A stretch of DNA of 64,000 bases, from contig OX031059.1 of the NCBI GenBank assembly GCA_943736015.1, forward strand, positions 51,533,159-51,597,158, given 5' to 3'. The position numbers and the translations under genes were made by a program. Below, in pieces: positions 14,260 to 61,471 of the stretch; within the stretch, counting starts at the first letter, position 1; each line of letters opens with the position of its first letter. The DNA comes from Tridacna crocea. Its lineage: Eukaryota; Mollusca; Bivalvia; Cardiida; Cardiidae. The notes under the pieces were generated by a model, which did no database searches, was not told where the DNA came from, and worked only from the letters and a program-made list of their open reading frames with translations.

Positions 14260-16694
14260 CTAAAATTTCAAATAATTTCTGTAACAGTGGGGGCACTTGA
14301 AGGAACTTCCTCGTCTCAGGACTCGTATTGGAGAACAAAAGGCCAAATGGGTCCAGTGAGAGCAAATCTCACACTGGCCCCAGTTGACAATAATAATATT
14401 TTCACACCCACGTTTTTGGTCTGGGTAAAATTCTTTACATACACAACAAACTTCAGACTCGTCCATTTCTTCATCTGAGGAATCTGAAGTGTCTTCAATT
14501 GGAAGTGGACCACCTTTTCCTCCACTTACACCAGATGTTGAAGGGATACATGTTTTTTCGTTGGTTTTATTTAGTTTTAATTTTGCAATTTGACTTTCTT
14601 TTTTTACAGATAGATCTTGAAGATGCTTCAAGTTAAATTCATTGGACAAATCCCCAGAAACTTTGAAAGGAGGGACAAAGTGTTTTTTTGTTTTTTGAGA
14701 AATAACAGCTGTGATTTTCCTACTTTCTAAGAAACTGCTGATGTCTGATGACGGCTTACCTGATGAAACATTCTTTTCCTTGGTGTCTTCATCTGGAATG
14801 GACTTTTCATAAATGACCGCAGGAGCCATATCAACTGATTTTATTTTATCTTTGTCAAAGGGAAAAATACCTGCTTTACAAAATGCTGAGGATATATTAT
14901 GAGGGGACATTGCTTTCAGATATGGTTTGGCTGTCAACCGGGCTATTTCATACCGGGTAATAGATATTCCTGGATTCTTCTGAAGGTACAACTGACATTC
15001 CCGGTAATAATAATTTTTAAAAGGACCAAACAACCCAACATCCAGTGGTTGAGTCAAATGACTTGTATGAGAGGGCAAAACAAAGAGAATAACATTATTT
15101 TGTTTTGCCCACTCAGACAGAGTCAAAGAGATATGTGACTTGTGACCATCAAATAGAATCAAGGAAACGGGCTTTGTTGGACCATTTGAGACTGACATAT
15201 TTTGCAAAGTGACTCGTCAAGTATTCCTCAAAGACTGCCGAGTTGGACCAACCCTTGTCAGACATAGTACCACTGGCCCCAGCAGGTGACCCATCCAACA
15301 AAGAACTACTCCAACGCTTTCCTGGAAATACATAATAAGGAGGGACAAAATTTCCAAGGGCATTAACTCCTGCAATAATGGTGATGTTTGCAGACCTGGG
15401 TGAGGTGGCAGCCTGAGCTTTGGCCTCAGGTCCACAAACAACTTTTGGCGGGTTATGTTCTGTGCTGACACCAGTTTCATCAATATTATATATATGTTGT
15501 GGTGTTTCAGACAAATTGTTCTTTTGGATGATATCACCCAACTCCTTAAAGTAATTTTCTATTGCTTCCTCAGAGGCACCCTTTGCACGAGCCAGATGTA
15601 ATTTTTGGGGCTTCAAAACCTTCAGTTCGGGCCATCTCCTGATGAATCCATAGAACCAATTGTGACTGAAACAATTTCCTACTTCCTTCCCCATAGATAC
15701 AGCCAGATCTGCAGCAATGTACTGGATATTTGTCTTGGAATATCCATACCCAATTGAGGCCATGTACTCTATGAAATCTACCAGTTGCCTTTCCTCACTT
15801 CGTGAAAATAAAGTGGATGGTCCACGAGTAGCATCAAGATCTACCAAGTTTCTTGTCCTGTCCCGCAGGGTTGACTCTGGAACATTAAATAAACGTGCTG
15901 CCCTGTAGACCGATGTCCCAGACCGGGTGGCTTCATATGCTCGTATTAAGTTTTCTTTATTGTATGACTTGGGCTTTTTGGGATCCTGAAATGTGAATAC
16001 TGTTTTGAAAACAAAAATAAGGGAATCTGTCAATGTGTATTTATTCTCTGTATATAATTTTTTGCAATTATTTATTTTTCTTATAAATGTTTCAAATTAA
16101 AGTATGATATTTTTGCTTTTTAATTCTATTTTCCAATGAACACCCCACTTTCCAACCCACCCTCAATGCAGTTCAACAAGTGAGTGCCTCCTACAGATTA
16201 TAAAAAGATAAACCTGGTTCAAGCTTGTTTATTTTTATTTAGCCTCATAAAAAAAAAAGTGGTGAAAGGAGAAAATGCTTAAAAAAAAGGAATTTCTCTC
16301 TTCTCCACAGTATTTGACCATGTCAAAAGACAAAATTTTCGGTATATACAACTAAATAATAGAGTGAGAAAACCTCATGTTATTAAAAAAACACCATATC
16401 TGTCATCTGAATCATAATCATTAGTTAACATCTTGAAACTGTCAAAATTATTTCCTTATCAAAGAGTGAGGGAAAATATAAATTCGCAAGTGGAAATGTA
16501 CCTTTAATACAATCCACATATTTAGTGACGTCATGAAAATCCTACGCTCAGAAGACAGAGATTTGTCGAAGGAAAAAAAGAGCAAAACAGTGAAATCTGA
16601 CAACATTTGCAGCATTAACTGATTGCATATTGATGTCCTTTAGTTTTTCTATGGTTTGCAATAAAAATGAACCACTTACCCGAATTTTAAACAT
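14260..16694 (-). CDS. pogo/Tigger-type transposase with DDE domain and C-terminal zinc-finger-like domain, one frameshift
   Basis: Cut-and-paste transposase. A tiny first exon (16694-16680, MFKIR) ends in GTAAGT and joins in phase to an acceptor at 15985. The protein then reads DPKKPKSYNKENLIRAYEAT, a psq-type helix-turn-helix, followed by a CENP-B-like DNA-binding stretch (GYGYSKTNIQYIA, NWFYGFIRRWPELKVLKPQ). DDE acidic residues are seen in YNIDETGV, LILFDGHKSH and LTQPLDVGLF; 35 residues separate the last two Asp. The C terminus has a Cys/His cluster like a PHD finger (CCVCKEF, CEICSHWTH, FKCPHC). A single-base frameshift near 15205 splits the reading between FDGHKSH and the upstream part, so this copy is probably inactive unless it is an assembly error. 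About 580 residues in total. Confidence 0.87.
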
Positions 16695-19365: not shown

Positions 19366-19646
19366 TAAATCAGCAGTCATTCTTCATGTACTCCTCATTC
19401 TACTACTATATCAATTTTGCAATAAATGGAAAAAACTCAGACATAATAAGCAATTTTTTCTTGAGCAACAATTCTTTCTTTGCTGTCTGTCTCAGTCTGT
19501 TTATTTTCATTATTTTCTACAGATTTTGGCAAGTCTGAAATATCTAGTATTCCATCACTGTACAATTTTTACAAGTAACACAAAGGAAAAATATGTGAAG
19601 GAAAGGAAACATCTAAATGTGTAACAGGTGGTGAAAAATATATCGC

Positions 19647-19719
19647 GGCTCAACCGGGATTCGAACCCAGGGCCTCAGGAATACCGTTCCTGCACTCTAA
19701 CCAACTGAGCTACCGAACC
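19647..19719 (-). tRNA. tRNA-like sequence (cloverleaf intact, anticodon GGT with C33), gene or SINE head
   Basis: The minus strand gives 73 nt with a 7 bp acceptor stem (GGTTCGG/TTGAGCC, with G-U pairs), D arm GCTC/GAGT, anticodon stem CAGGA/TCCTG with loop ACGGTAT, and T arm CTGGG/CCCGG. The A box is TAGCTCAGTTGG and the B box GGTTCGAATCC. TTTTT follows about 8 nt after the 3' end, as a Pol III terminator. Position 33 is C rather than U, and GGT is not a normal eukaryotic Thr anticodon, so it may be a pseudogene or the tRNA-like head of a SINE. Confidence 0.5.
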
Positions 19720-29300: not shown

Positions 29301-32300
29301 AATTTTCTCATTTCATAAAGAGATTTATATATATAAAGTAATAAATCGAAAGAGGAAGAATTTCTAATGGATATGATAACATTCTATACTCTTTATTGTC
29401 TCCAGTGATATGTATTTTCACTTAGGCTCACTTTAACCCTTTCCCAAACAATCCCTGGTTTTTACGGGTCTGGAATAGTAGCCTTTTGAAAACATTGTGG
29501 GAAAAGGAGAAAATGCTGGTTACCAGCATTTTCTCCTTTTCCCACAATGTTTTCTACCCATCATAGACACAAATCATCTTTTCAGCAAGAGTTGAATTGT
29601 CATCTGCAAATGCTTTCAATTTGGTCTAGTCCAAAAGTTTGTCGTTTGGGAAAGGGTTAAATCAAATTAACTCTTTATCATACAATCCAGTATTTGTACA
29701 ACTCTGAGAAAGAAGTCTAGTTAGCAAGCTTTACATACTTTTTCCACAATGAATTCTACCATTTCTAGATGAAATTAATTCATTTGACCAAAATGAATCA
29801 ATCATCTGCAAATATATTCAACATGGACTTGACTAAAATTTTACAGTTTCATAAATCCTTTAACCCTTTACCTCATAAGGCATTTCTATGGTATCTCTAA
29901 TTGACCCTAAATAACAGCAAGGATGAAGCCATTTTTTATGTGTATATGACACCTTTTGATAGCATAGAAAACATTGTGACAAAAGATGAAATTGCTCGTG
30001 ACGAGCAATGTCACCTTTTGCCACAATGTTTTCCAAAGGCACCTACAAGCAATGCATAGAAATGAGTATCTATGGAGTAAGGGGGTTAAAAGATGTAGAC
30101 TTGTATACCAATAAAAAAAACAGAAGTGCATACGGATCAGCCTGCTTTTCTTCAATGTTGATTTTTTCATCACTTCACCTATGAATCCCATCAGCTGAGC
30201 CACATTGAACTCTTTATGATACAATAATATTTCAGCATTTTCCAATTTGACAGAAACAATTGCATACAATATTTCAAACATGGTTCATAGAATTAAATCA
30301 ATTTCAATTTTTGGTATTTCAGAAAACACTGTGGGAAAAGGGGAAAATGTGGGTTACCAGCATTAATATTTTTTTGGTTTCAAAAACTTTCCTCCCTATG
30401 GACTGGTAAAACTCAGAGTTGTTTAGTAAAGGGTTAACTCTTTATCACACAGTCCCAACTTTTAATGACCCTGAAGAAGGAGGCTTTTGAAAGCATTATG
30501 GTGACCAGCATTTTCTCTTTTTCCCACAATGCTTTCTACCCTCCTGTAAACAAACTTCAATGACTGAATCAAGTTTATTTTGTGATCTGCAAATGCCTTC
30601 AATTTGGACAAGTTTGAAATTTTGTTGTTTGGTAAAGAGTTAATTATAATCTACAAAATTAATGCTTTCAATCAGACACTCCTAAAACACGGTCATCAAA
30701 TAAAGTTCAGAAAGACAACAACCAAATACCTGTGCAGTTTTCTGGCTGTAATCTTTCCTTTAGGAAGTTACAGCAGGCTGTCACTATCTCGGTCACAGAG
30801 AACATGTCCGCCGCTGTCAACAAGTCTTCACAGTTACTGTCTGTTACTTCTACCTCTCCTGTAAACGTATAAAAAAAGTTACCTATGGTAAATACAATGA
30901 GAATGTCTTAGACAACAAATCATGCTACCATAAAATCCAGGCAGAAATATATCAGCAACAAAATTATTATAACAATTAATTAAACCCCTTTTCAGAGTGT
31001 ATGCATCACTTGCCTGAGTATAAGAAATCCAATATGATGGAAAATGTGTCTGATGACACTCCACCAATGTGTACAATATCCTTGTCATGTTCACACATCC
31101 CACTGATAAACATAGCATGGAAATATGGGCTACCTGCCATTAGTACAATCTGAAAAACAGAAAGTAAATGCGCAGATATGCAGTGGCACATAATATTTGA
31201 ATCCTAAAAGCACCATGTGAATTTCTTCAATAGAGCCTATGAGGGTATTCAGTGGTTATAATGTTGACTGAATTCTAATCAGTATCCAATACATAGGTTT
31301 TTGCAAAGGACACAGATGCGGTCACCCTATGAATGAGAAAATATTGCTTAACCCTTTACAAACGAATCCTGTATCAATGAAACTGAGAAAGCAGAAAATG
31401 GTGAGGGAGATGCCAAAAAGCTACAAAACAATATTCCTTCTTTTCCTACAAGTGTTTCAACCTTAACCCTTTACCAAACAACAAACCTTGTCTAAACTGG
31501 AAACATCTGCAGATGAAATATCAAATGCAGCTCAAACTAGAGCTATCACTAAACATGATTATCCCAACCCCCCCTCCCCCACCAGCTCCTTGTCACAAAA
31601 ACAGGTCTTTGTCATAGACTGCAGAATGTTTTAGTACAAATGAGTCAATGACTGCTATATGCTTAAAGACAACTTTATCTGACAACTACACATGTGTTAT
31701 ACTTATGCACATACCTTATGACAGCCAAACTGTTTACTTTCCACTTCTAGTTGAACATCACAAAACGCATTTTCAAATCGTAGTTCATGAATTGTTTTAA
31801 AGAAGGACTTGGGATATTCTGCTGAAACATACCTACAATTAAGAAATAATGATTTGGATTATTCTATTAAAACATAGGTTAACCCTTTACTCCATAGATA
31901 CTCATTTCTACGCATTGCATGTCGGAGCCTTTGGGAAACACTGTGGCAAAAGGTGAAATTGCTCCTGACGAGCAATTTCACCTTTTGTCACAGTGTTTTC
32001 TATGCTACCAAAAGGTGTAATATACACATAAGAAACAGCTTCATCCTTGCTGTTATTTAGTGTCCATTAGAGATAGCATAGAATTGCTTTATGGGGTAAA
32101 GGGTTAAGGGAGACCACTGATTCATGCGCAGCTTCGTCCCAAGTTAAATACAATACATGACCACTGCATTGAAGAGATATCTCTTTGGCGCAGTGGTTAT
32201 GGTATTGCTCTTTTAAGCCTCAAAAAAAGAGTATATTTGCTCATCATCGGTTTGAATCCCGCCAGAGACGGTTTGTATTTCAGCTATGCAATTGTTCATT

Positions 32301-33128
32301 TGTTTCTTTGTTACAGACTTTGTTCGTAAGACATACCCTAGTCCCTATGAGTTAATAAAATATCTAAAAGACAAAATTATAACTGCAATTATGTGTGAGT
32401 ACTAAATGAATTATAAAATGCAATTATGTATGAGTACTAAATAGGCCTTGTGTAAATTCACAGTCAATGTCAACATAGCAAAAGAATTGCATCTCTTTGT
32501 ACCCAAAGATAAATATTGAGAGTTAAAAAAAAAGGCCATGAAATCACATGGTGTAGTTGGAGGTCCTTTCCAAAATAGACCAGGGCAGCAATATCATGAT
32601 GCTAGCTGGTCATTATGACAAGCATTAGATAAAGAATAGGACTGAAATAACAACATTTGAAGCAGACAAATTTGATAAAATCTTTGAAGAGAATACATAA
32701 TCAGCATGGATTTATGTTAAGCCTTACAGTGCTGAATAAGCCAAGGACAATTTTTAAGATAAAATGCAAACCCTGATATGAGCAATTTCAAGGTTGCCTT
32801 CGTCCTGACTCCAAAATGTCTATGCAAAACAGAGTAAATCAAAGATCAGATTGCATGCTTTTTGCCACTCTATCTTATTCTACCATGGCCATCTGGACAA
32901 CTAAAGCAGTACAAGGAGTTTTAAGCATTTAACTTGTAAATATACGTAAGGTATAGATGCAAGCTGAAGAAATTCCTCATAGCAGTTGTTTTCATCTTGT
33001 GTGCAAATATCTTAAAAAATTGTCGGCATTGTAAATGGAAAAAATAAATTGTCTATATCAGAGATTGTATAAAGCTGATACCTTGAGGCATTTTCTTTAC
33101 AACTGTACACGGTTCCACCTTCTGCCAT
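20379..33128 (-). CDS. BTB-BACK-Kelch protein (kelch-like family), complete
   Basis: Likely a substrate adaptor of Cullin-3 ubiquitin ligases, from the domain order. Exons: 33128-33082, 31832-31715, 31149-31014, 30858-30730, 28921-28736, 27522-26976, 26218-26049, 23643-23423, 20603-20379. They total 1779 nt, giving 592 residues plus TGA, with all phases matching. The BTB spans about residues 25-130 (FCDVQLEV, GCHKIVLMAGSPYFHAMF, FLYSGEVEV). BACK spans about 135-245 (IYLFAEAIACHML, AAMGWILYNVQDRRKYIF). Six kelch blades follow from about residue 300, each with a GG pair (YICGGF, VCVVGGEN, LYAVGGWIG, MYLVGGSND, LYAVGGWNE, LYVMGGRN). The intron between 31014 and 30858 begins with GC in an AG/GCAAGT context. 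The start MAEGGTVYSC lies in a 47 nt first coding exon preceded by an acceptor-like site near 33148, so a noncoding first exon is likely. I cannot assign an orthologue number. Confidence 0.93.
20652..20871 (-). mobile_element. TTAA MITE subtype with GACAGAAATAATC arm, reverse
   Basis: CCCTTTCTCAAAAAATCCC start; closely related to 29437-29656 and 50441-50661. Begins 48 bp upstream (gene sense) of the last Kelch exon. Confidence 0.75.
20984..21186 (-). mobile_element. TTAA MITE, reverse, degraded
   Basis: CCTTTTTCACACAATTCTG start and TTTTGGTAAAA end; centre unrecognisable. Confidence 0.4.
21255..21660 (+). repeat. Related short dispersed repeat, split by a TTAA MITE
   Basis: CTGTCACTGAATGTGACTTAA is followed by the MITE 21285-21505, then TTAATACCCCCGCCAACGCT, a GGACACACGG-type simple stretch, and GACAGGCTGATTCCAGTATT. 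A poorer relative is at 31540-31600. Confidence 0.55.
21285..21505 (+). mobile_element. TTAA MITE type 1, forward, complete
   Basis: Interrupts the dispersed repeat 21255-21660 at TTAA. From 21661 to 22248 no other feature is seen. Confidence 0.85.
22249..22345 (+). mobile_element. TTAA MITE type 1, forward, central piece
   Basis: GGAAAAGGAGAAAATTCTGG and CACAATGTTTTCAAAAG only. Confidence 0.5.
22394..22610 (+). mobile_element. TTAA MITE type 1, forward
   Basis: Left TTAA kept; related to the variant at 1868-2084 (GTGCAAATGGTGCAAATG). Beyond it, 22740-23050 holds nothing clear. Confidence 0.7.
23276..23372 (-). mobile_element. TTAA MITE, reverse, right-half fragment
   Basis: ACCAGCATTATCTCTTTTTC and TTTGTCAACTGCAAAATGCC. 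A second degraded piece is at 23056-23180. Confidence 0.45.
23676..23836 (+). mobile_element. TTAA MITE, forward, truncated
   Basis: Left end eroded; GGACAAAATGCTGGTCACC centre kept; runs into the next copy. Confidence 0.5.
23841..24037 (+). mobile_element. TTAA MITE, forward, type 3 ends with type 1/2-like middle
   Basis: CCCTTTACTCCATAGATAC start, but GTGGGAAAAGGAGAAATTGC inside; TTAA both sides. A possible chimera of subtypes. Confidence 0.6.
24068..24249 (+). mobile_element. TTAA MITE type 1, forward, arm lost
   Basis: TTAA both sides; palindrome reduced. A further degraded piece lies at 24290-24440; 24450-24880 shows nothing clear. Confidence 0.6.
24880..25345 (+). repeat. Old dispersed repeat copy split by a TTAA MITE
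   Basis: GGATCCATTACAGCTAC runs to TTAA, then the MITE 24945-25166, then TTAAACAGCCAACTTAATCA. The downstream site GCAGATGCATTAAGCC (25303-25318) is unoccupied here. Confidence 0.5.
24945..25166 (-). mobile_element. TTAA MITE type 1, reverse, complete
   Basis: Interrupts the old repeat at 24880-25345; the homologous site at 11660 is empty. Confidence 0.8.
25503..25768 (-). mobile_element. Same molluscan SINE as at 2569
   Basis: Single copy reading TTGGTTGTATTTGGGTTTAA, CAAAGCCACTGACTATTTTT, GTATCAAACTCACAACC and CACTACCGAGCCACCC. In the Kelch gene intron between exons 26049 and 23643. Confidence 0.6.
25788..26012 (+). mobile_element. TTAA MITE type 1, forward
   Basis: Complete centre; ends eroded. 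Ends 37 bp from the Kelch exon 26049-26218. Confidence 0.65.
26426..26562 (-). mobile_element. TTAA MITE, reverse, truncated right end
   Basis: CCCTTTACCAAACAATCCC start after TTAA; palindrome with several mismatches. Confidence 0.6.
26715..26919 (-). mobile_element. TTAA MITE type 1, reverse
   Basis: TTAA at the left; small deletion near the right end before TTTGGTAAAGGG. Confidence 0.7.
27548..27715 (-). mobile_element. TTAA MITE, reverse, right end lost
   Basis: Complete central palindrome; starts 26 bp from the Kelch exon 26976-27522. Confidence 0.6.
28240..28313 (+). repeat. Short tandem repeat, ~30 bp unit
   Basis: GAATAGTGTGTAGTCTAGTG plus TAGTCTAGT repeats about 2.4 times. Between 27716 and 28440 nothing else is recognisable. 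Confidence 0.7.
28461..28660 (-). mobile_element. TTAA MITE type 1, reverse, degraded
   Basis: CCCTTTACCAAGTAATGC start; GAGTCACATTTATCTTTTC right part. Confidence 0.5.
29437..29656 (-). mobile_element. TTAA MITE, reverse, complete (50441 subtype)
   Basis: CCCTTTCCCAAACAATCCC...TTTGGGAAAGGG between TTAA; perfect palindrome. The preceding gap 28922-29436 has only a doubtful MITE piece at 29050. Confidence 0.8.
29672..29857 (-). mobile_element. TTAA MITE, reverse, degraded
   Basis: CTCTTTATCATACAATCC start, ATCATCTGCAAATATATTC near the right; palindrome lost. Confidence 0.45.
29864..30085 (-). mobile_element. TTAA MITE type 3, reverse, complete
   Basis: CCCTTTACCTCATAAGG...GGAGTAAGGGGG between TTAA; centre TGCTCGTGACGAGCAATGTC. 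Confidence 0.8.
30305..30433 (+). mobile_element. TTAA MITE, forward, left half lost
   Basis: Ends TTTAGTAAAGGG and shares a single TTAA with the next copy. Confidence 0.55.
30438..30639 (-). mobile_element. TTAA MITE type 1, reverse, arm shortened
   Basis: Abuts the previous copy across one TTAA (30434-30437); ends 91 bp from the Kelch exon 30730-30858. Confidence 0.65.
31008..31014 (-). other. GC-AG splice donor in the Kelch gene
   Basis: On the minus strand the exon end TACTCAG is followed by GCAAGT. Only this junction joins YSG to EVEVTDSN in the correct phase at the acceptor 30859-30860. Confidence 0.75.
31352..31535 (-). mobile_element. TTAA MITE remnants, two broken pieces
   Basis: CCCTTTACAAACGAATCC at 31352 and CCCTTTACCAAACAACAAAC at 31465, each strongly decayed. 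Confidence 0.45.
31877..32330 (+). mobile_element. Old solo LTR of the same family, with a TTAA MITE nested near its 5' end
   Basis: The pentamer ACATA lies on both sides (31872-31876 and 32331-32335). The LTR begins just before a type 3 MITE (31883-32103) and resumes at GGGAGACCACTG, continuing through an A-box-like TGGCGCAGTGG and B-box-like GGTTTGAATCC to TTGTTCGTAAG. It is strongly diverged and is the oldest of the three copies. Confidence 0.65.
31883..32103 (+). mobile_element. TTAA MITE type 3, forward, complete, nested in an LTR
   Basis: TTAA both sides; centre TGCTCCTGACGAGCAATTTC. Sits 5-6 bp inside the solo LTR 31877-32330. Confidence 0.8.
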
Positions 33129-41771: not shown

Positions 41772-44700
41772 ATGATAACAAACCACTGTCAAAAGTCTAT
41801 ACTCTTGAAACTTCTCTTACACCGTTATTCTTTCTTGTCAGCGCGTAGTTATTGTACAAGTACCGAAAAAGATAGATGGGACGCTGTTCCCATCAAAGAA
41901 GTTCAACGGTTCATCGTAGATTGCATGAAAAGTGTGGGTACAAAAGCTGACCATGCGGCAAGCCTTGCAGATAACCTTACTGCTGCTGATCATAGGGGGC
42001 ACTACAGTCATGGCCTGAACCGTCTTGGTAACTTGTCATTTTACTTACACTTTAACCCAATACTGCACAATGCTGACTTTTAACACCCCTGGAAATAAAG
42101 CTTTTAAAAACATAGTAGAAAAAGGAGAAAATGCTGATAACCAGCATTTTCGCCTTTTCCCACGTTTTCTACTCTTTTGAAAACAAAAATGCTCAATTGA
42201 AATTGACGTCTGCAAATCCTTACAAATTGAATAAGGCTTGAATTTTGTCGTCTGGTCAAAGATTAATAGTATAGAAGACAAGTAAGTTGCAGCCTATGTT
42301 CTTCTGGTATTAATTTCCATCGGAACCATTTTTAGACAAGACACTATCTCCAAGCCAAACGCTCTTTCCCACATAAACAAAGTCAAACAATGTCAAGTTG
42401 TGAAAAAATACATCATATGTGACTTCTTTCAGACCTCAAACAAAGCTTTATTAGATTGGCTTCAAATCAATGCTGCTTGCTTACTAATACTGTACCCATC
42501 AAGATGAAAAGGCAGAACCATAAAATTCATCCATACTTTGCAAAAAATAAAAAAAATTACAAAAAATTACATTTACAAGTTATTCATGTACCGGTATGCT
42601 TGATCCACCTAAGATTTACCGTATTTTATTTTCTGTAGATATGTATGTTCATGACATAATGGCTGGGATTGCTGTTAGTGATGTTGAACCCTCTATACAG
42701 AATGAGACTTCAGCGACTGCACATGTTAATGGGAACAATGTTCTTGGACCTGTGGTGGGCAACTTTTGTATGAAACTTGCTATACAGAAAGCAGAGGATA
42801 CAGGGGTTGGATGGGTTGTTGCCTCTGGTAAGTTTTAAATTTTTTACTGATTACAAAGCAAATACTGCTTCCTTTGTCCCTGTACATGACACCTTTGTAA
42901 AATCCTATGAGTGAAGTATTGATTACTTGTAACTGCTCCTTTCTTACAATGTATTCTATACTGTTGCAGGACAATATTCTGCTCTCCAAGAAATATTTTG
43001 CCCTTGATTAAATGATTACAACTCAAAAATTGAAATTTGTTTCCAGCAGGGGAGAAAACATTGTGAGAAAAGGAGAAAATTCTGGTTACCAGCATTTTCT
43101 CATATCCCACAATGTTTTCAAATGGCTTCTATCTCAGAGTCCTAAAAACCAGGGATTGTTTGGTAAAGTGTTAAACCAGAACAGAAAATGTTTTTCTGAT
43201 CATTTTTGTATTTGGTTTGAACTTTGATATGCCGGTAAAGAACAACTTTAAAATATTGGATCTGTTGAACTGACTGAAAGTGTCCAAATCATTTGCACTC
43301 TAATGTTTGATAGGACAGGTACATGTTCTGGTACAAAAAATAGTACACGCACTTTGATTTTATGAATGGTTACCATATACCGGTTTAGCTAATTAGCAAA
43401 CAAAAATATTTTAAGCTTGTCCATCCATATTAAAAGCATTTGCAGACGACAAAAAATAGGTGACTGAAAATTTGAAATATGTTTTATGAAGGGTAGAAAG
43501 CATTGTGGGAATAGGAGAAAATGCTGGTTACCAGCATTTTCTCCTTTTCCCACAATTTTTTCTAAAGGCCTCTTTCTCAGGGTCATCAAAAGTAGGGATT
43601 GTGTGGTAATGGGTTAACAAAGACGACTCCTGTTTGAATACAGGTTCAAATCATTATGGAATTGCTGGCTGGTATTCTATGCAGGCATCTAACCAGGGAT
43701 TTTTGGTGAGTACTTAAAAGAATTACCAAAGTCTGCTACAATAGATTTAGAAATGTCAGAACTACATATTTAAACATTCCTTAACTGTATATCTCACAAT
43801 TAAATTTTGGTGAGTGAAAAGTGTAAAAACAAAAATATAAACCAGTGTGCCAGGTTGACGTGATGTAGCTGAGTATCAAAACAATCATTCTAGACATGTT
43901 CAAAATGAAAGCATTTGCAGATGACAAAGTAGATGAGGCTTAAATGATGAAATTTGCCTATGTAAATATAAATATAAGGGTAAAAAGACTCATGGGTAAA
44001 AGAGAAGATGCTGTAACCATCATTTCTCTCTTTTCCACAGTGTTATCAAAAGCATTTTTCCTTACATTAATTAGATTTGGGATTGTTTGATAAAGCATTA
44101 ATTAAATTTTATTACATGTCTTACAAGTCCGTAACAAAGAAGTAAATGAATAAATGCATGGCAGAAATAAGGGACCAGGCAGGATTTGAACACCAGAACT
44201 CCCGGATGAAAGGCCAGTACCTTAACCAATGAGCCGAAGAGGTATCTCCCTGACGCAGTAGTCAGGTATCGTATTTAAATCGGGATGAAGCCATGCAGGA
44301 AGGAGTGGTCTCCCGTAACACATGCCATTTAATTTTTCTCTCCAGGGCTTATCCTTTACAAACACATCACCGTTAGTTGTGCCAACACGAGCAAAAACAG
44401 TAAGTACACATTTAACAAGCCTGTTTCAATATTTTCTGCATTCAAAAGATCATTGCAAACACACGTATCATCCTTCCAATGCTATATGACATTTTACTGC
44501 CCCAATGTCAACAGCGGTGAAAACTAGTGGGGAAAGGTGGAGATCTTGTATAATGTAACCATTTAAGTGTTTCCTATATAATTTGGAGATTTAACAGCCC
44601 TGACAAAGAAAGCTTTTGAAAACATTGTTTTGCTACCTTTTCAGAGAAAAACCCTACTGTGTGAGGTTTAAATTTGTCATTTGCAAATTGTTCTGATTTG

Positions 44701-50700: not shown

Positions 50701-53700
50701 CCCTAGGCTCAAGTCCGGTATGCTGCCGACTGGGCTAGAGGCTTTATTGCATTTTTTTCTCTGCTCTGTTATAATAATAATGATGTCCACAAAAACAACT
50801 TAAGTTATATACTTCTTGCTCAGTGAGCTATATGATATCCTTGTCAACATTTTGGGCTAAATAAATGAAATGGGCATTTGTCATGGAGCTAGTACTTGTT
50901 TTCAGTCCTCTAGAGTGGTTTTGTTCAGTTGTAGATCCTGTTTCACAACCTATGTTAAAGTTACACAGGAGCACAGAGATCAAATGTAGGTTGGGATCAT
51001 ACATCATGTTTTATTATACGGCAAAGAAATTTCTCGTGATCTGATTAGTTAACATGCAGGGAACATATATATCATGTACCCTGGCAAAAACCACGTAAAC
51101 CAGTTTCCCTTTTGAGTGCCCCGTAAACATCACCACACTTGCAACACAACATACAAAATGGCGATGTCGATCGATCACCAGACTGCATGTTTATGCACCA
51201 AACTGCATGTTTTAGTGATGTCAGTTTGACATCAGTTTTCATTGAATTGGGGCACTCAGAAGTGAATTTCTATTCCGTCAGCAAACTTGATTCGTGAGAT
51301 TATAAAACAGGAAAATTTCGCTTAACACGCATTGAGAGGATAAAACTTTGCAGTATAATAAATTTGTTGTATGGTCAGGTGGCAGGGGACTTGGAAACTT
51401 GTTCACGGCCGTGTTGAATCATGTTGCCACCTCACCTTTGGCTCTGGGCGACACGATATCACCATTGCCGTGAACAACTTTCCAAGTCCCCTGGCACCTG
51501 ACCGTACAACTAATACTGTGCTGTTGATTCGTGATGTCAAACTGTGTGCAAAAGTAAATTCATGTATGATCTTTCAGCCCAATGGCCAACAGTAATACAA
51601 TTTTTTTTTACCCTCTGTACATGAGAGACAGGTCTAATAACCAAACTTTTCTTAAATTTTAACATATTTTCTTTCCCTGAACCTACACAACCCTTTACTA
51701 AATGGTCCCCGATTTTTACAATCCAAAGATAGACGCCTTTGGAAAACATTGTGAAAAAAGGAGAAAATGCTTGTTACGACAGACCACTCCTTCCTGCATG
51801 GTATACTCCCGATTTAAAATACAATACCTGGCTACTGCGTCAGAGAGATATCTCTTTGGCTCAGTGGTTAGGTTATTGGCTTTGCGTCCGGGAGTTCGGA
51901 GTTCGAATCCCGCTCCGATCCTTATTTCTGCCATGCATTTATTCATTTGTTTCTTTGTTGCGGACTTCGTTCGTAAGATGGGGGCTCGTCCGGGATTGGC
52001 CATTGAGCCATTAATCCCATTTGTTGTCCAAAATCGGACTTCCTGCCTAATAAGGCTTTGAGTCATCAATAAATGATGACTTTAAGAGGGGGTGTGTTAC
52101 GACAGACCACTCCTTCCTGCATGGTATACTCCCGATTTAAAATACAATACCTGGCTACTGCGTCAGAGAGATATCTCTTTGGCTCAGTGGTTAGGTTATT
52201 GGCTTTGCGTCCGGGAGTTCGGAGTTCGAATCCCGCTCCGATCCTTATTTCTGCCATGCATTTATTCATTTGTTTCTTTGTTACGGACTTCGTTCGTAAG
52301 ATGCTGGTGACCAGCATTTTCTCCTTTTCCCACAGTGTTTTCTACCCTGCTGGAAACAAGTTTCAGTTTTTGACCAATGTCTGATTTATCGTCTGCAAGT
52401 CCTTTCAATTTGGCCAGTCTAAAATTATGTCATTTGAGAAAGGGTTAAGAAAAGGGCACCCTAATGGGAGATGTGTAACAATGCTTTTCATCTCCGATAA
52501 AACATACTGATTGGTCTAAGACTCTTGTATTCTGCAATTTATCAGCTGATAGATGCTGCTATCACCTTGATTATGGATTACCTGATTCTTATTTGAATCT
52601 GTAGGCTTTGGCAATGAAAGGCATGAGTACCATCTTTGCAAGCCAAGGCTGACCATTCACTACGCTACTCTACCCTTTACGGAACGAGTTTAATTTTTGC
52701 ATTCCCCCAGTACGCTTTTTCATTGGATGCAGCCTGCTCTAACTGCAACAAATGAAATCTTTCATAGCATTTCATCTTTGATAAAAATAGAACAAAGTCG
52801 CTACCTTTTGAATAGAGAGTAAACATGGAAACCCATGTGGATATCTGCTTATCGCTTCATGTGTATTCATAAGCGGTTTGTAAAACGATATTTCATTGGC
52901 TTTTAGAAATGTGATGTAAAGGGGGGTAATAACCAGCATCCATTAGAGGGTGCATCGCAGGAATCTCGAAATAGGGCTCAATCAGCCAAGGTAAGATCCA
53001 CATAGTGATCGTAACCTTGGCTTGCGAAGATGCCATAGTACAAGCAAAGTACACAAATCCCATTAGGTTGCGGTATCCTTTATGTTTAACCCTTTACTAC
53101 ACAACAAAATTTTAGACTGGGAATTGAAAGCATTAGTAGACAAAAAACTAAAAGTGCTTCATAAAATTAAAGTTTATTTTCAAAGGGTAGAAAATAATAT
53201 GGAAAAAGGAGAAAAGGATGGTTACCAGCATTTTCTCATTTTCCCACAATGTTTTCTCTAGGCATCTATCACAGGGTCATTAAAAGTCGGGATTGTGTGG
53301 TAAAGGGTTAATTTCTGACTTCTTCCTTTAACCCATTACCACACAATCCCTACTTTTGACGCCCCTGAGAAAGAAGCCTTTTGAAAACACTGTAGGAAAA
53401 GGAGAAAATGCTGGTAACCAGCATTTTCTCCTTTTCCCACAGTGTTTTCTACCCTTCCCAGAACAAATTTCAATTTGTCAATCACCTTTATTTTGTCGTC
53501 TGCAAAAGCTTTCAATTTGAAGCAGTCTAAAATTTTGTCATTTGGTAATGGGTTAAGTTGACACTGGCTTTTGATGGTCAATGAAATAGCATTCATTCTT
53601 TCACTTGATGGTATTGCATTTGACTGCTGACCTGCCCCAAATTATCAGTGGAGAGGGAGATATGAACATGTGAACATGTAATTCTGATTGTGATGTCTTG

Positions 53701-59029: not shown

Positions 59030-61471
59030 CTCACCAGTGCACGAAGTGCTCAGAGTGAGCTATTGTGATAGTGCTGTGTCCGGCGTCAACTTTTACCTTG
59101 TGTACGCTCTAGAGGCCACATTTTCAGTCCGATACTCATGAAAGTTGGTCAGAATGTTTGCCTCGATGAAATCTCAGACGAGCTCGAAAATGGGTCTTGT
59201 CGGGTCAAAAACTAGGTCACTAGGTCAAATCTTAGAAAAACCTTGTGTACGCTCTAGAGGCCACATTTTCAGTCCGATACTCATGTAAGTTGGTCAGAAT
59301 GTTTGTTTTGATAAAATCTCAGACAAGTTTGAAAATGGGTCATGTCAGGTCAAAAACTAGGTCACCAGGTCAAATTTTAGAAAAACCTTGTGTATGCTGT
59401 AGAAGCCACATTTTCAGTCCAATACTCATGAAAGTTGGTCAGAATGTTTACCTTGATGATTTCGTGGACGGGTTTGAAAATGGGTCATGTCGAGTCAAAA
59501 ACTAGGTCAATAGGTCAAATCTTAGAAAAGCCTTGTGTACGCTCTAGAGGCCACATTTTCAGTCCAAAACCCTCGAAAGTTGGTCAGAATATTTGCCTTG
59601 ATGATAGCTCAAACGAGTTTGAAAATAGGTCATGTCGGGTCAAAGCTAGGTCATTAGGTTAAATCCTAGAAAAACCTTGTGTACGCTCTAGAGGCCACAA
59701 TTTTAGTCCAAAACTCTTGAAAGTTGGTCAGAATCTTTGCCTTGATGATGTCTCGTACTAGTATGAAAATGAGTCATCTCGGTTCAAAAACTAGGTCACC
59801 AGGTCAAATGTTAGAAAAACCTTATGTATGCTGTAGAGGCCACATTTCAGTCCAAAACTCTTGTAAGTTGGTCAAAATGTTTGTTTTGATGATATCTCAG
59901 ACAAGTTTGAAAATGGGTCATGTCGGGTCTAAAACTAGGTCACCAGGTCAAATCTTAGAAAAACCTTGTATATGCTCCGGATCCCACATTTTCAGTTCGA
60001 CACTCTTGAAAATTGGTCAGAAGTTGCCTTAAAAATATCTTGGACGAGTTTGAAAATGTGTCATGTTGGATCAAAAACTGGGTCAATAGGTCAAATGTTA
60101 TAAAAACCTTGTGTATTCTCTGGAGGAAATATTTTCAGTCTGATACTCCTAAAACTTGTTCATGATATTTGTCCTGGTAATACCTTGAATGAGTTTGAAA
60201 ATGGGTCATGTGGAGTCAAAAACTAGGTCACCAGGTCAAATTTTAGAAAAACCTTGTGTATGCTCTAGAGGCCACATTTTCAGTCCCATACTCATGAAAG
60301 TTGGTCAGAATGTTTGCCTTGATGATTTCTTGGACGAGTTTGAAAATGGGTCATGTAGAGTCAAAAACTAGGTCAATAGGTCAAATCTTAGAAAAGCCTT
60401 GTGTACGCTCGAGAGGCCACATTTTCAGTCCAAAACCCTCGAAAGTTGGTCAGAATATTTGCCTTGATGATAGCTCAAATGAGTTTGAAAATAGGTCATG
60501 TCGGGTCAAAGCTAGGTCATTAGGTCAAATCTTAGAAAAACCTTGTGTACGCTGTAGAGGCCACATTTTTAGTCCAAAACTCTTGAAAGTTGGTCAGAAT
60601 CTTTGCCTTGATGATGTCTCGTACTAGTATGAAAATGGGTCATCTCGGTTCAAAAACTAGGTCACCAGGTCAAATGTTAGAAAAACCTTATGTATGCTGT
60701 AGAGGCCACATTTTCAGTCCAAAACTTTTGTAAGTTGGTCAGAATGTTTGTTTTGATGATATCTCAGACAAGTTTGAAAATGGGTCATGTCGGGTCTAAA
60801 ACTAGGTCACCAGGTCAAATCTTAGAAAAACCTTGTATATGCTCCGGATCCCACATTTTCAGTTCGACACTCTTGAAAATTGGTCAGAAGTTGCCTTAAA
60901 AATATCTTGGACGAGTTTGAAAATGTGTCATGTTGGATCAAAAAATGGGTCAATAGGTCAAATGTTATAAAAACCTTGTGTATTCTCTGGAGGAAATATT
61001 TTCAGTCAGATACTCCTAAAACTTGTTCATGATATTTGTCCTGGTAATACCTTGAATGAGTTTGAAAATGGGTCATGTGGAGTCAAAAACTAGGTCAATG
61101 GGTCAAATATTAGAAAAACCTTGTGTTCACTCTAGAGGCCACATTTTCTGCCTGATATTCTTCAAACTTGGTCAGAATGTTTGTTTTGGTGATGTCTCAA
61201 GAGAGTTTGATAATGGGTAATTGTTGGGTCCAAAACTAGGTCACTTGATCAAATCTTAGAAAAACCTTTTGTATGCTGTAGAGGCCACATTTTCAGTCCA
61301 ATACTCATGAAACTTGGTCAGAATGTTTGTCTTTTTGAAATCCCAAAAGTGTTTGATGATGGGTAATGTCTGATAAAAAACTAGGTCACTGGGAAACCAG
61401 ATTGAAAATGGTTCATGTTTGGTCAATAGACTCAGGTGATCGATTTCAGGGCCATCATTGCCCTTTTGTCT
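59030..61471 (+). repeat. Tandem array of ~145 bp units with six-unit higher-order repeat
   Basis: About 16 units of ~145 bp, each with GAGGCCACATTTTCAGTCC, AGTTGGTCAGAATGTTTG, GAGTTTGAAAATGGGTCATG and CTAGGTCA...CTTAGAAAAACC. Units starting near 59402-60121 recur at 60268-60989 with an ~866 bp offset. The array is framed by TTAGCTCACC...GTGCTCAGAGTGAGCT at the left and GACTCAGGTGATCGATTTCA plus GGGCCATCATTGCCC at the right, so it looks like the core of a mobile element with stem-loop ends (possibly Helitron-related, inference). There is no coding pattern. Confidence 0.75.

Follow-up and report, generated by a model that had tools for sequence, protein, structure and literature searches.

A 530-bp element at positions 51772–52301 of the analysed window (64,000 nucleotides of Tridacna crocea contig OX031059.1) is very probably a Helenus-type TRIM with a Pol III-type promoter in its LTRs, primed by tRNA-Pro and moved in trans by a Gmr1-like Ty3/gypsy helper. 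In the proposed cycle, transcription from the type-2 (A/B box) Pol III promoter of the LTR would start about 10–13 nt upstream of box A, tRNA-Pro would prime the resulting RNA, and reverse transcription and integration would be supplied by a resident Gmr1-like Ty3/gypsy element with the same primer site. The structure of the element and the history of its insertions can be read directly from the DNA; the polymerase, the helper and the exact RNA start are what we infer from it.

The element consists of an LTR, a primer site, a noncoding interior, a purine tract and a second LTR. Its direct repeats, for which the original prediction gave 206 bp, are plus-strand LTRs of 207 bp each (51772–51978 and 52095–52301; TGTTAC...GTAAGA) that differ by a single G/A over 207 positions, a degree of repetition far beyond chance; the interior is noncoding as predicted, and measures 116 rather than 117 bp from LTR to LTR. 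Directly adjoining the 5′ LTR is the expected primer binding site (TGGGGGCTCGTCCGGGAT, 51979–51996, plus strand), a perfect match to a type that we take to be tRNA-Pro. It is followed on the same strand by noncoding sequence with a short hairpin (51997–52083; hairpin arms 52060–52068 and 52074–52082) and by the polypurine tract AAGAGGGGG (52084–52092), likewise anticipated, after which TG leads into the 3′ LTR. Both LTRs contain the predicted tRNA-type boxes on the plus strand: box A (TGGCTCAGTGG) lies at 51857–51867 and 52180–52190, and box B (AGTTCGAATCC) at 51900–51910 and 52223–52233. Upstream of these are a TATA-like TTTAAAA (51813–51819 and 52136–52142, plus strand), about 31 nt before the putative RNA start, and a native palindrome, AGAGATATCTCT (51844–51855 and 52167–52178), which coincides with the putative RNA 5′ end and with the axis of the mirror-image copies described below.

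The element is flanked by a 4-bp target site duplication, TGCT (51768–51771 and 52302–52305), and not by the 5-bp ATGCT first proposed, a parse that arises because the final A of the LTR (...GTAAGA) equals the base to the left of TGCT. An exact 4-bp duplication, together with the ends TGTTAC and GTAAGA, is found at 38 of 39 fetched loci, of which 15 also fit a 5-bp parse; the exception is L015, where the second copy runs off the edge of the locus. These 39 loci are the best matches of a search that scored 40 of 3,855 first-look candidates, so that the sample favours the youngest copies. Two of them are tandem LTR–interior arrays (L017 with four LTRs and L046 with three), each enclosed as a whole by one duplication. 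The site before insertion is visible too, since the element interrupts a foldback repeat that occurs dozens of times uninterrupted elsewhere in the window, with copies reading across the insertion point; 115 alignments span the junction (excluding those over the element's own place and those missing the junction), many of them being both strands of one palindrome. The GGAGAAAATGCTGGTNACCAGCATTTTCTCC core of this foldback repeat is found, after merging, at 76 places from 150 to 62556, or about one per kb across the window, and two of these are the halves split by the element. The window TRIM lies near the foldback apex. Two of the fetched loci, L009 and L010, and one palindromic copy, L098, likewise lie in or near that apex; the search that yielded L009 and L010 included flanks and thus favours such copies. 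Separately, a 145-bp unit is repeated in tandem about 16 times at 59095–61390.

The exact 24-nt junction between LTR and primer site occurs 1,910 times (930 + 980; exact matches only) in 1,048,827,098 bases, and a reversed-pattern control gave no match in the same ~1.05-Gb genome. Separate pattern scans of viral contigs and of genome contigs, sets from which records of the window's own genome were possibly excluded, gave no hits. Among 42 adjacent LTR pairs, 21 are identical, 13 differ at one base and eight at two to four. Sampled interiors are 116–119 bp long, and in 42 of 43 the primer site is present, the same fraction that ends in TTTAAGAGGGGGTG. The window itself holds two solo LTRs. One, of a related subfamily (44119–44320, minus strand, ~84–85% identical), has its own 4-bp duplication, CATG; the other (32103–32331, plus strand, ~69%) is old and degenerate, with no recognisable duplication. 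The element is a recently active, young, high-copy and non-autonomous TRIM that carries no genes; the copies sought in its own genome were found in number, with duplications of 4 bp instead of 5.

The same observations decide whether the repeats could be tandem SINEs, or a segmental duplication, without any LTR element being involved. The tRNA-like boxes do resemble those of SINEs and tandem arrays exist at L017 and L046, but the 43 sampled interiors have in common a primer site and a purine tract, the LTR termini are constant, exact 4-bp duplications flank 38 of 39 loci including both arrays, a solo LTR has a duplication of its own, and the empty site can be seen. A SINE has no LTRs and inserts in LINE fashion, whereas this element has LTR pairs and duplications of fixed length. 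Tandem SINEs are thus refuted and the alternative as a whole is extremely improbable; as originally proposed, this is a TRIM with tRNA-type boxes, whose interior, primer site, purine tract and duplications are common to many copies.

Such elements, suggested to be an independent case, belong to a kind already published as Helenus, TRIMs with tRNA-derived sequence in their LTRs (Kojima 2024; PMC10886601). That paper reports 51 families from five orders of pteriomorph bivalves; Helenus lengths of 311–1263 bp; duplications of 4 bp in animals; bivalve primer types that include tRNA-Pro; a conserved GGTTC in box B; and solo LTRs and tandem arrays in some families. Gypsy is the suspected helper of animal Helenus on the basis of primer-site likeness, and the discussion describes transcription and helper as so far without experimental test (PMC10886601). 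Placement of the window element in this group, made by comparison with the published description and not with consensus sequences, is well supported. It is short and noncoding with two LTRs (530 bp, with 207-bp LTRs and a 116-bp interior), has the tRNA-derived box A (TRGCY, YGG; TGGCTCAGTGG in 83 of 84 sampled LTRs), carries a primer site after the 5′ LTR and a purine tract before the 3′ LTR (42 of 43 each), and makes the 4-bp duplication of animal Helenus (38 of 39 loci); where Helenus box B has GGTTC, the sampled LTRs read AGTTCGAATCC (80 of 84) or GGTTCGAATCC (3 of 84). Beyond the Helenus paper, the present genome adds one copy that is chimeric with a Gmr1-like element, and a set of mirror-image copies. 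Judged by title and the start of the abstract, the literature search returned no paper on a tRNA-promoter TRIM besides Helenus.

Two other miniature elements were compared. The plant element Cassandra also has a Pol III promoter in TRIM LTRs and forms tandem arrays, but its LTR is described as 5S rRNA-derived and as containing Pol III terminators (PMC7215508), whereas the window element has tRNA-type boxes; Cassandra was rejected because nothing in 51700–52400 matched Rfam at E ≤ 1 and TTTT occurs in just one of 84 LTRs. The bivalve biv-TRIM shares with the window element its miniature size, terminal repeats of 202–218 bp, solo repeats and tandem arrays, and differs in its 77–80 bp interior, the lack of a clear primer site and the purine tract GGGGAGA of most copies; the portion of the paper at hand describes no tRNA-type promoter (PMC6934838). 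It was set aside on account of the 116–119 bp interiors, the AAGAGGGGG tract and the primer site found here.

Transcription of the TRIM by Pol III would agree with the composition of its LTRs. Box A and box B are spaced 43 nt apart, start to start, and the prevailing form of the latter departs at one base from the box B consensus, which is GGTTCGANTCC. The 323-bp repeat unit contains no TTTT, which is also true of 1.2% of 2,000 shuffles; across the sample TTTT is found in 1 of 84 LTRs and in none of 43 interiors, and AATAAA or ATTAAA in none of the 84 LTRs, with AATAAA present in all 43 interiors. By comparison, two LTRs of the Gypsy family discussed below have 14 TTTT each, and one of the two has AATAAA/ATTAAA. 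The missing TTTT and LTR polyadenylation signals favour Pol III with read-through; the AATAAA of the interiors, the box B mismatch and the lost cloverleaf described next count against the proposal. The tRNA-like part of the LTR no longer has a cloverleaf: it folds no better than shuffles (z −0.35), Rfam finds nothing in the region given above, and ARAGORN lists no tRNA at the element, results that also rule out a functional tRNA in the LTR. The sole tRNA that ARAGORN lists in the window is a tRNA-Thr (GGT) gene on the minus strand at 19645–19719.

The TATA-like site, which reads GATTTAAATAC in 81 of 84 sampled LTRs, keeps the choice of Pol III at the level of a suggestion, because TTTAAAA about 31 nt before the putative start would suit Pol II at that start as well. 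Transcription by Pol II, with the A/B boxes as functionless leftovers from the capture of a SINE or tRNA, would also fit the loss of the cloverleaf, yet it appears unlikely in view of the polyadenylation signals missing from all 84 LTRs and the near-absence of TTTT. It is further opposed by the two solo LTRs of the window, where box A is identical at 9/11 and 10/11 positions and box B at 9/11, above the stretch between the boxes (81% and 50%); this last argument is weakened by U5, which is equally preserved (50/57 in both). Downstream of the putative Pol III start, the leader is predicted to fold better than most shuffles (z −3.04; 2 of 200 as good). The model includes a 15-bp pairing of the box A region (51857–51871) with 51996–52010 that would enclose the primer site; none of 200 shuffles pairs as strongly, with the best one close (31 vs 32), and the copies are too alike for covariation.

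A Pfam scan of five long open frames of the window identified a transposase of the pogo/Tc5 type, on the minus strand at 14260–16096 in two overlapping frames (DDE_1 and HTH_psq), along with a Kelch fragment, and no retroelement helper. Genome-wide there are 210 tRNA-Pro primer sites without a following T, of which the first 30 were taken in contig order rather than at random; compared with matches shorter than 60 nt left out, they comprise 25 TRIMs or degenerate relatives, four members of a Gypsy family and one chimera, with no third family. The Gypsy family consists of L078, L079 and L081, together with L080, a copy that has no large element frames. It codes for proteins, unlike the TRIM. 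In L081 a single frame contains H2C2 (266–323), rve (343–438) and RVT_1 (761–820), so that integrase precedes reverse transcriptase (RT), and L078 has the same order; the RT domain was not found in the frames of L079 and L082. Integrase ahead of RT is a mark of Gmr1. A SCAN domain is above the cut-off in L079, L081 and L082 and below it in L078, and two papers place SCAN in the Gag of Gmr1-like elements (PMC3424704, PMC4131045). With a SCAN-type Gag and this domain order, the family is Gmr1-like.

Larger relatives with the primer site and similar LTR ends had been sought, and this family supplies both, with a different primer-site spacing. The LTRs of L078 and L079 (~560 bp) end in TCGTAACA, similar to the end of the TRIM's, and the family's LTRs start with TGTTA (TGTCA in the right LTR of L079); its purine tract, AAGAGGGG or AAGGGGGG, is similar to that of the TRIM, and its duplications are likewise 4 bp (ATTA and ATGT in L078 and L079). 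The shared primer site follows the LTR after a 5-nt spacer (GAAAT) in the Gypsy copies, and without spacer in the TRIM. Neither box A nor box B was matched in the two Gypsy LTRs checked, and BLAST found no TRIM match in L078–L081. L079 is a Gypsy copy with LTRs 99.1% identical and a frame lacking the RT domain, followed by large repeats.

The chimera, L082, has the Gypsy leader, gag and integrase region between LTRs built of TRIM R-U5. Its interior is 94.5% identical to L078, 96.8% to L079 (over part of the length) and 94.3% to L081; no purine tract was seen before its right LTR. Having a 4-bp duplication of its own (ACTA) and LTRs that are 98.5% identical, it was apparently inserted whole, and, as a single example, it supports co-packaging of TRIM and Gypsy. 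From the shared signals and this one chimera, the Gmr1-like Ty3/gypsy family is the likely helper of the TRIM. It is improbable that some other tRNA-Pro-primed LTR element moves the TRIM and that L082 arose by DNA recombination: the lack of long similarity between TRIM and Gypsy and the unequal primer-site spacing would be compatible with this, but no third family appeared among the 30 fetched sites of 210, and recombination does not sit well with the duplication and near-identical LTRs of L082.

Each LTR of L082 is a head-to-head dimer of TRIM R-U5, and the 26-nt centre of this palindrome occurs at 39 places in the genome (78 rows, both strands of each). The 38 places besides L082 were fetched with a pattern that fixed the axis beforehand; L062/L082, the sole mirror-image copy met without that pattern, has the identical axis. 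In 19 of the 38 each arm reaches an exact U5 end at a distance of 129 or 130 nt from the axis, and exact 4-bp duplications flank 18 of the 29 whose outer ends were both read. Scored at up to four mismatches, the primer site is present on neither side in 16, on one side in 20 and on both sides in two (L090 and L096). Eight of the 16 without primer site have exact 4-bp duplications (L084, L092, L093, L094, L099, L101, L103 and L115); the other eight have none, and several of them are degenerate. The far end was read in 13 of the 20 one-sided copies, ten of which combine a palindromic left end, an ordinary right LTR and a matching 4-bp duplication (L083, L085, L097, which is an array, L102, L106, L107, L109, L110, L113 and L117), a combination not seen in L104, L108 and L119. 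Compared arm to arm, 11 of 18 copies show 0 to 7 differences, one shows 21 and six more than 25 (classed as indels); some of the differences fall at positions where ordinary copies differ too. Among ordinary LTRs, the full 12-nt palindrome is present in 42 of the 84 sampled and absent from the related solo LTR at 44119–44320.

Where U5 ends lie next to the duplication on both sides, the piece most likely integrated as it stands, and on balance, bearing in mind that the search fixed the axis, we lean towards reading the mirror-image copies as dimers of minus-strand cDNA that became integrated, with the RNA 5′ end at their axis. If the RNA began at the short palindrome AGAGATATCTCT, minus-strand cDNAs would end in self-complementary 3′ tails, so that two of them could pair and prime each other. 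Two strong-stop cDNAs would then give solo U5′R′RU5 palindromes, a strong-stop and a full cDNA an element that is palindromic at the left and has an ordinary LTR at the right, and two full cDNAs head-to-head elements, of which two are seen. With U5 ends facing outward, integrase could insert such dimers by a route that would need neither the purine tract nor a second strand transfer. If this holds, the axis would put the RNA 5′ end at about 51844–51847, 10–13 nt before box A, though the palindrome, complete in 42 of the 84 sampled LTRs and lacking in the related solo LTR, might simply be the easiest point of pairing.

Descent from a palindromic-LTR founder, or DNA inversion after insertion, is a possible but doubtful origin of these copies. 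L082, palindromic at both ends, indicates that such an LTR can be copied, the solo palindromes could be solo LTRs of a palindromic-LTR line, and the axis was set in advance by the search pattern, which leaves room for either origin. A normal reverse-transcription cycle makes the two LTRs alike, however, so the ten copies that are palindromic at the left only, with an ordinary right LTR and matching 4-bp duplications, are hard to derive from a founder, and an inversion ending precisely where U5 meets the duplication would be unexpected. In one copy, L091, the primer site runs straight into an inverted box B, as if the template had been switched during reverse transcription at the shared GGGATTCGAAC stretch. 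In L089–L090 (G000:C3:13871342-13874868), two palindromic LTRs lie 3 kb apart, and the right one has an inverted Gypsy leader on its left and a TRIM leader on its right. The literature search, again by title and start of abstract, returned no integrated palindromic cDNA of this sort, which is not proof of absence.

In summary, TRIMs with small-RNA promoters are newly recognised, and what this element is likely to add is a Gmr1-like helper, with one chimera, and mirror-image R-U5 copies. A chromosome-scale genome with 1,910 exact junctions, numerous nearly identical copies, a candidate helper, a chimera and mirror copies allows direct tests of the helper, of the RNA 5′ end and of the cDNA route. 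If the mirror-image copies are indeed cDNA dimers, they would preserve in nature an intermediate of reverse transcription able to integrate without the usual second-strand steps, and would mark in the genome an RNA start at the Pol III position.
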